A DNA stretch of 49,045 bases. Source: Verrucomicrobiales bacterium (lineage in GTDB: Bacteria; Verrucomicrobiota; Verrucomicrobiia; Limisphaerales; CAIMTB01). The position numbers were made by a program, and so were the translations under genes. A model generated the notes under the pieces. That model ran no database searches and was not told the origin of the DNA. It saw nothing but the letters and a program-made list of their open reading frames with translations. Positions 46,804 through 49,045 of the stretch are shown piece after piece. Location: NCBI GenBank assembly GCA_020845805.1, contig JADLFD010000035.1, forward strand, positions 1-49,045. Direction: 5' to 3'. Each line of letters starts with the position of its first letter. Position 1 is the first letter of the stretch.

Positions 46804-48636
46804 TCAGGGGGCCGACGCTGAGGCGCCGGCGCCGGAATCCGACCCGGGTGCTGGCGCGGGCGGCGTCACATACCAATCCCGCCGGAGCCAGTCCGTGAGC
46901 TGCGCGATTTCCTGGGCGGTGATGACCTGATCGCGCGCGTAGGCGGGCATGCGGTCGTTGCGTTTGCCGTAGAAATGGTCGCTGGTGGGGTCGCCGATGA
47001 AGTCGATGAGCCATTGGCGCGAGCCATAGCCGGTGAGGCGCGGTGCGGTGGCGTTTTCGTTCGGCTTACGGAACTCGTGGCACTCTGTGCAGCGCATGGC
47101 CTCGGTGTCGATGAGACGCCGGCCGGCGGCGATGTCCGATCCCTCGGCTGCGTCGGCCGCGCGCTGGGAGGGCAGGGCGGCCTCGGCCGACACCGCCTTG
47201 AGGACCTTGGCGAGGTCGGCCTTCTGCGCGTCGTTGAATCCCGCGACCGTCCGTTTCACGAAGCGCACCATCTTGCCTTCTTTGAAACGAGTGCCGCCGA
47301 AGTAATCCGCGGAATCCACGTGCGCGGGATCGACGAACTTCGTCAGCCAGGCGCGCGAGGCGAAGTCTTTGAGGTCGGGTGCGGACGCGGCGTCCGCGGG
47401 GGTGCCGCCCATGCCATCATGGCCCCCGAACCGATGGCAGCTGGCGCAATGCTGGGCGAATAGGCGTGGGCCGCGGGTGGCGGGGTCGTCGCGCAGCAGC
47501 GCGGCGGCGCCTCCGACGGGAATGCCGGCCGGGGCGGCGGCGAGTTCCTTGGCTCGGGCGGCATCGGCCCTGGCCTGGGCGACGGCACGTGCGAAGTCCG
47601 GATCGTTCCGGTCCTGTCGCAGGGCGAGGATGGTGAGGATGGACGCGGCCAGGACAAGGGCGCCGAGGAAGGCCAGGTTGAAGGCGTGGCCACCCCGACG
47701 CCGTGCGATGAACGGCATGAGGAAGAGCACCCCCATGGTCAGTGACGGCAGGACGACGGCGCCGAGGACTTCGGTTTCACCTGGGAAGTACTTCAGCATC
47801 TGGAACAGGAACAGGAAGTACCACTCCGGTCGCGCGGCGCTGTAGGGTTCCGAGGCGTCAGCCGGAGCGTCGAGAGGCGTTCCCACGTAGACCGCGAGGA
47901 ACAGCACCGCGCCCATGATCACCAGGCACGCGACGGCGTCCTTGAGGAGTTGGTCAGGCCAGAAGTAGGCGTCGGGCTTGCGGAACGGCTCCTTGGCTTT
48001 GATGCCGTGCCGGCGGAACAGGAGGATATGGACGACCGTCAGCGCGACCAGTGCGGCGGGAAGCACGCCGGCGTGCAAGGCGAAGAACCGCGTCAGGGTG
48101 TGGTGTCCGTAGTCGGTGCCGCCCAGCATCATCTGCTGGAGGTAAGGGCCGACGACCGGGGTGACCGCGACGATGTTGGTGGCGACGCGGGTGGCCCAGT
48201 AGCCCTTTTGGTCCCAAGGCAGCAGGTAGCCGGTGAGCGAAAGGCCCATCACCACGGCGAGGAGCGCGATGCCAAACCAGAAATTCACCTCGCGTGGCGC
48301 GCGGTAGGCGCCATCGATCATCACCTGGGCCAGGTGCAGCACGAGCAGGACGTTCATGGCCTGCGCGGTGAAATGATGGATCCCGCGGACGAGCCAGCCT
48401 CCCCACATGACATGCTCGATGTAGAACACGCTCTCCCAGGCCGTCTGGGAACTGGGGCTGTAGGCGGCCCACAGGACGATTCCGGTGAGCACCTGGATCA
48501 GGAAGGTGAAGGTCAGCGTCGAGCCCCAGATGTAGCGCCATCGCGCCCCGCCGGGGACGCGTTCAAAGAGCGCCTCCTGCAGGAGGTGCTTCCAACCGGT
48601 GCGGTCGTCGAGCCAGGCGGAGAGGGAGCGGAACAT
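46804..48636 (-). CDS. Cytochrome b (b6-like) of a bc complex fused to two cytochrome c domains
   Basis: The 610-residue protein begins with a cytochrome b core. His87/His101 and His188/His203 are the haem b ligands; the 15-residue spacing of the second pair is b6-like. Around residue 270 comes PEWY, the Qo-site motif of subunit IV / cytochrome b C-terminal half. About 270 C-terminal residues carry two c-type haem sites, CASCH (about 397) and CTECH (about 517), with a candidate axial Met in NDRMPAY. The single chain therefore joins quinol oxidation to cytochrome c-like electron output at the membrane. It sits 6 bp after the Rieske gene. The C-terminus is Pro/Gly/Ser/Ala-rich. Confidence 0.88.
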   Translation of the reverse strand: MFRSLSAWLDDRTGWKHLLQEALFERVPGGARWRYIWGSTLTFTFLIQVLTGIVLWAAYSPSSQTAWESVFYIEHVMWGGWLVRGIHHFTAQAMNVLLVLHLAQVMIDGAYRAPREVNFWFGIALLAVVMGLSLTGYLLPWDQKGYWATRVATNIVAVTPVVGPYLQQMMLGGTDYGHHTLTRFFALHAGVLPAALVALTVVHILLFRRHGIKAKEPFRKPDAYFWPDQLLKDAVACLVIMGAVLFLAVYVGTPLDAPADASEPYSAARPEWYFLFLFQMLKYFPGETEVLGAVVLPSLTMGVLFLMPFIARRRGGHAFNLAFLGALVLAASILTILALRQDRNDPDFARAVAQARADAARAKELAAAPAGIPVGGAAALLRDDPATRGPRLFAQHCASCHRFGGHDGMGGTPADAASAPDLKDFASRAWLTKFVDPAHVDSADYFGGTRFKEGKMVRFVKRTVAGFNDAQKADLAKVLKAVSAEAALPSQRAADAAEGSDIAAGRRLIDTEAMRCTECHEFRKPNENATAPRLTGYGSRQWLIDFIGDPTSDHFYGKRNDRMPAYARDQVITAQEIAQLTDWLRRDWYVTPPAPAPGSDSGAGASASAP

Positions 48637-48642
48637 GGCGGG

Positions 48643-49045
48643 TCAGACGGGGATTTTCTCGGCCGTGCCCATGCGGAAGTTCTGGAACTGCACCCAGACC
48701 TCCTTGCCGTTGCGAATCTCGACCGGCAGTGAATCGAGCCCCCGCGCCGACGGATTCCCTACACCGGAGACCGCGCCATCGACGGAGAAGGCGCTGTTGT
48801 GACACGGGCAATAGAACTGGCTCTTCCCGGGTTGGTAGTCGACGAAACAACCAGCGTGTGGGCAGATGCTGTGCACCGCGGTCACCGTCTGGTCGGCGGC
48901 TCGGCGCAGATACACCGCGCCCACTGCGGTGCGCGGGAAGCGGTTCCAGGCGTCCACGCGGTCCGCCAGGACCGCGAACTTGCGCGGACCTCCGTCGGCT
49001 GGAAGGGCATCCAGCGTGGTGATCCGCGAGAATCCCGCCGCCGAA
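48643..49045 (-). CDS. qcrA: Rieske iron-sulfur protein of the bc complex, 5' part outside the window
   Basis: The frame runs off the right edge of the window, so the N-terminus with its membrane anchor is missing. The visible ~133 residues contain the Rieske [2Fe-2S] motifs ICPHAGCFVDY and FYCPCHNSAF (two Cys and two His ligands) and the family's terminal GVGNPSARGLDSLPVEI block. The GTG-started 104-residue ORF in the track is internal, since the frame continues upstream through RITTLDALPADGG. It precedes the cytochrome b-c fusion gene by 6 bp, as expected for a qcrA/petC-qcrB pair of a quinol:cytochrome c oxidoreductase. Confidence 0.92.
   Translation of the reverse strand, partial: SAAGFSRITTLDALPADGGPRKFAVLADRVDAWNRFPRTAVGAVYLRRAADQTVTAVHSICPHAGCFVDYQPGKSQFYCPCHNSAFSVDGAVSGVGNPSARGLDSLPVEIRNGKEVWVQFQNFRMGTAEKIPV

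Follow-up and report, generated by a model that had tools for sequence, protein, structure and literature searches.

A gene for cytochrome b at the end of a Verrucomicrobiales contig raises the question of how electrons would leave the Qo site of its product for the periplasm. The gene lies in a window of 49,045 nucleotides, the whole stretch of DNA that was analyzed (contig JADLFD010000035.1). From the letters of the window, the sequence-only reading had proposed a b6-like cytochrome b that continues into two haem c domains and so dispenses with a separate cytochrome c1 or f. The protein, its gene neighborhood, its relatives, and the other respiratory genes of the same genome were analyzed here. 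The features of the locus are as follows.

46804..48636, minus strand: b-cc fusion protein of 610 amino acids, cytochrome b with two C-terminal haem c domains
47602..48636, minus strand: cytochrome b part, residues 1-345 (Pfam; AlphaFold2 helices)
48334..48378, minus strand: haem b ligands H87 and H101 with 13 residues between them, conserved in 100/100
48028..48075, minus strand: haem b ligands H188 and H203 with 14 residues between them (b6 spacing), conserved in 100/100
47818..47829, minus strand: PEWY motif of the Qo site, residues 270-273
47206..47478, minus strand: haem c domain 1 (Pfam PF00034), residues 387-477, with CASCH at 397-401 and candidate distal ligand M456
46867..47139, minus strand: haem c domain 2, about residues 500-590, with CTECH at 516-520 and candidate distal ligand M563
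48643..49045, minus strand: Rieske [2Fe-2S] gene, 3′ part only, with CPHAGC...CPCHNSAF (Pfam Rieske, 3.7e-10)

The Fused Chain and Its Rieske Partner

The open reading frame was confirmed as a single chain in which the N-terminal (7e-39 and 7e-42) and C-terminal (1.4e-6) cytochrome b domains of Pfam are followed by Cytochrom_C (1.1e-11). The second haem c domain gives a weak SoxX-like match. Across 100 aligned proteins the four histidine ligands of the b haems are invariant, with spacings of 13 and 14 residues throughout, and both CxxCH motifs are likewise present in every sequence. The PEWY motif of the earlier reading was recovered at the Qo site; the alignment has PEWY in 78 proteins and PDWY in 22. 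Each c domain has one apparent distal methionine, M456 (100%) and M563 (98%). An orthologue from the same genus is 70% identical over 605 residues. No NCBIfam model covers the fusion protein as a whole, the matches being partial and below the cut-off; the best profile is that of cytochrome b6.

The structure was modeled with AlphaFold2 from an alignment of 69 sequences (pLDDT 88.8). The model has the fold of cytochrome b, with seven long helices predicted at residues 33-58, 80-108, 116-137, 178-211, 228-250, 286-310, and 316-344. The seven-helix part is thus predicted to be the equivalent of b6 plus subunit IV within one chain. Because the number of membrane helices is odd, the haem c arm would lie on the periplasmic side if the N-terminus is cytoplasmic, as the orientation of solved cytochromes b suggests by analogy. 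A Foldseek comparison of the whole model with the PDB gave cytochrome b from bc1 complexes. The dihaem arm alone gave no Foldseek match at E<=0.001, and its haem geometry is therefore not anchored by a solved structure. By sequence, the solved protein to which the arm comes closest, through haem c domain 1, is QcrC, the dihaem subunit of the actinobacterial bcc complex (E 2e-7).

The stop codon of a Rieske gene, which the sequence-only reading had not mentioned, is found 6 nucleotides ahead of the ATG of the fusion. Its 5′ end is lost because the contig stops at 49045, and we infer the missing part from the sequences of relatives. A Rieske open reading frame stands immediately upstream of the fusion in 100/100 loci examined, and the Rieske protein is the essential partner of the fusion. 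An RRxF-type twin-arginine motif appears in 91/101 of the upstream Rieske frames (locus L004 is a full example). In the CHxSxY stretch, phenylalanine replaces the usual tyrosine in all common variants.

Downstream of the fusion the window has a convergent gene of the GyrB/ParE type, and no oxidase gene adjoins the complex within the window. The sequence-only reading had suggested a search for a third c-type cytochrome or genes of an alternative complex. No conserved same-strand gene for an extra c-type cytochrome was found beside the pair in 100 orthologous loci; genes of alternative complex III (ACIII) are present in the genome, on contig C456. At two loci (L023 and L025) a 1549-aa same-strand frame with one CxxCH lies 73 bp downstream of the fusion. 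At several Gemmatimonadota loci (L066, L076, L081-L086, and L090) a small stand-alone haem protein is encoded convergently, 20-139 bp downstream; that of L084, the one scanned, is PSCyt1.

Absence of Cytochromes c1 and f and Distribution of the Fusion

Cytochrome c1 (PF02167) and cytochrome f (PF01333) were searched for with curated cut-offs in 58 genomes, the window's own and 57 relatives. Neither gave a match over the cut-off; the positive controls were found in Caulobacter (c1) and Synechococcus (f). Nor was a c1 or f gene found in the orthologous operons at 100 loci; the earlier reading had named such a gene in the operons of relatives as grounds for refutation. With neither found in these operons or above the cut-off in these genomes, the Rieske electron would evidently leave through the fused c arm. 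The proposal that electrons pass from the Qo site to the periplasm without a separate c1 or f is supported to this extent, the transfer itself being suggested by the sequences.

The fusion architecture occurs in Verrucomicrobiota (Pedosphaera/Limisphaerales-type and Opitutae), Gemmatimonadota, and Planctomycetota, with both CxxCH motifs in every fusion frame examined. It was detected in 28/58 genomes of the sample from the window's order and in 21/200 of the Gemmatimonadota genomes drawn (E below 1e-130). Matches at E<=1e-60 were obtained in 66/392 Planctomycetota genomes, and nearly all of those read have two or three CxxCH motifs and an adjacent Rieske frame. The draw from the phylum Verrucomicrobiota returned only genome G000 and one relative at 37% identity; it samples the window's order poorly and gives no estimate of prevalence. 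At L024, L034, L041, and L069 the gene is carried by metagenome bins that look mislabeled, with names like "Akkermansia muciniphila" and "Klebsiella pneumoniae" in their titles.

A phylogeny of the cytochrome b part, which the sequence-only reading had named as a check, places all 40 fusions of this family with two or more haems on one side of a single branch (support 100/99). This clade is separate from the bc1, b6, unfused, and mono-haem forms and includes the sampled Planctomycetota sequences. Trees disagree on how the bc1, b6, and mono-haem forms are ordered at depth, where long branches are involved, and this deep order was not used. Genomes with Planctomycetota homologues at 39-45% identity were searched for the hydrazine synthase alpha family, which was found in 14/17 of those tested and identifies these 14 as anammox bacteria.

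Other Rieske/cytochrome b loci from the window's taxonomic order, only distantly related to this one, vary in their makeup. In some an unfused cytochrome b adjoins a mono-haem c protein of about 470 aa, and in others there is a single fused haem; one has three fused haems, and some have a hexahaem neighbor. These are separate complexes and not the orthologous operon. At L117 (G014:C71, 1157-4102, minus strand) a Rieske gene is followed by a 982-aa cytochrome b with three CxxCH domains and a terminal hydrophobic segment. The cytochrome b of L122 and L123 has KAPWY instead of PEWY; its neighbor is a hexahaem c protein, and a Rieske frame lies nearby.

Proposed Electron Route and Role in the Cell

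The product of the two genes is very probably a quinol:cytochrome c oxidoreductase, a Rieske/cytochrome b complex in minimal form, with the fused dihaem c arm in the role of c1 or f. Quinol, probably menaquinol, would be oxidized at the Qo site formed with the PEWY motif. From the Rieske cluster the first electron would enter the arm and go from one of its c haems to the other, provided that both domains are loaded with haem, before it leaves for a periplasmic acceptor, which may be a soluble cytochrome c or an oxidase directly. The second electron would be returned via haem bL and haem bH to the Qi site. In such a Q cycle the complex, presumably a dimer, would contribute to the proton-motive force. 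The genome has menaquinone biosynthesis genes of the MqnA/MqnD type; these genes and the change from tyrosine to phenylalanine in the Rieske protein would fit a lower-potential menaquinol chain. Electron transfer from the Rieske protein to c1c2 has been described for the actinobacterial bcc complex (PMC11189923).

Genes for ActD, an ActB-like protein, and an NrfD/ActC-like protein lie beside an oxidase gene on contig C456, and the ActB/ActC-type subunits are absent at the fusion locus. Because ACIII genes are also encoded in the genome, the fusion complex is one of two complex III-type routes. ActD was detected in 26/28 genomes with the fusion and in 24/30 without it (Fisher p 0.26), and mutual exclusion of the two complexes was rejected on these counts. 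Three genomes of the same genus do not have the fusion; with ACIII also present, the fusion is thus dispensable in this group. The cbb3, aa3-type, and ACIII-linked oxidases of the genome are all located on other contigs. On one of these contigs in the window's own genome, C413, a single frame (L109, 3-1958, minus strand) fuses CcoN and CcoO of cytochrome cbb3 (COX1 and FixO).

The position of the gene close to a contig end in an incomplete genome could suggest that the fusion arose from misassembly or a frameshift. The same architecture at about 100 independent loci in three phyla already refutes such an artefact by conservation, and we give it practically no weight. A further reading takes the arm to dock on a terminal oxidase, as in actinobacterial bcc-aa3, with direct electron transfer and no soluble cytochrome c. 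The arm is closest in sequence to QcrC, which substitutes for a soluble cytochrome c in mycobacteria (PMC11189923), and in the Planctomycetota loci L051 and L095 a third haem domain, PSCyt1, extends it. The window, however, has no oxidase gene by the complex, and we regard direct docking as rather unlikely. The third domain (PF07635) is fused at the C-terminus of the arm in L051 and L131 (Planctomycetota) and in L095 (Phycisphaeraceae).

The frequency of ActD among carriers of the fusion and the three same-genus genomes without it would also fit ACIII as the main route and the two-gene complex as a side branch, for example one that feeds a periplasmic reductase or runs in reverse, and not a general respiratory complex III. 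No conserved reductase gene was seen among the c-type neighbors of the orthologous pair, though, and the Qo motif and haem ligands are kept as in ordinary complexes; a side branch is accordingly judged improbable. Equally speculative is a broader view, in which the b-cc complex of uncultured Verrucomicrobiota, Gemmatimonadota, and Planctomycetota would act as a self-contained wire, docking straight on an oxidase with no need of a soluble cytochrome c, would carry a third PSCyt1 haem in some lineages, and would operate in parallel to ACIII as a second, switchable complex III. The preferred reading remains the minimal quinol:cytochrome c oxidoreductase.

A two-gene complex III of this kind, widespread in poorly cultured phyla, offers annotation pipelines no c1 or f gene to detect; in the window's order it usually stands alongside ACIII. 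Surveys based on modules may score its carriers as having no complex III. One survey reported no cytochrome bc1 in Phycisphaerales (PMC11266412); in contrast, L095, labeled Phycisphaeraceae, has the Rieske and b-cc complex.

Comparison with Known Systems

The complex of the window is neither a cytochrome b6f nor a classical bc1. It resembles b6f in the x14 spacing of the second histidine pair, the seven helices, and the best NCBIfam profile, and the label "b6-like" given by the sequence-only reading holds for the spacing and helix count. It does not extend to the other hallmarks: the cysteine for haem ci is absent (the aligned position 36 is V, I, or A in 100/100), the subunit IV region is part of the same chain instead of being split off, and there is no cytochrome f. 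The PEWY motif (PDWY in 22/100) is shared with bc1, but no c1 subunit is present and the second histidine pair is spaced by 14 residues in 100/100 proteins, not 13.

Cytochrome b with a C-terminal c domain is also found in mono-haem fusions (Deinococcus gobiensis L112; L116; L126), and a Rieske gene adjoins L112 and L116. These proteins have a single haem c and fall outside the dihaem clade. The actinobacterial cytochrome bcc (QcrABC) shares the dihaem c arm and a menaquinol chain, and its QcrC is nearest to haem c domain 1; QcrC is a separate subunit there, whereas both c haems are on the b chain here. Fused b-c forms have been reported in Bradyrhizobiaceae and Planctomycetes (PMC4013037); in Bradyrhizobium, cytochrome b is fused to c1 by that description, and the likeness drawn here is to the description and not to the sequence. 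CIII_2 of Nitrospira moscoviensis consists of a Rieske protein and a fused cytochrome b/c subunit (PMC6606698), but a further dihaem cytochrome c subunit belongs to that cluster, and none was seen here.

The fusion of cytochrome b with a two-haem c protein has already been published for Kuenenia stuttgartiensis, so the novelty of the architecture is limited. Kuste3096-3097 comprises a Rieske gene and a cytochrome b fused to a two-haem equivalent of c1; according to the authors of that description, such a fusion is frequent in Gram-positive bacteria as well (PMC12954380). The locus in the window is the same kind of two-gene unit, with Kuste3096 likened by its description. The link to anammox bacteria is drawn through the homologues at 39-45% identity in hydrazine-synthase-positive genomes, which belong to the same dihaem clade; Kuste3096 itself stands outside the alignment. 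The protein of the window differs from Kuste3096-3097 in its phylum and in its setting, a genome that also encodes ACIII and several oxidases.
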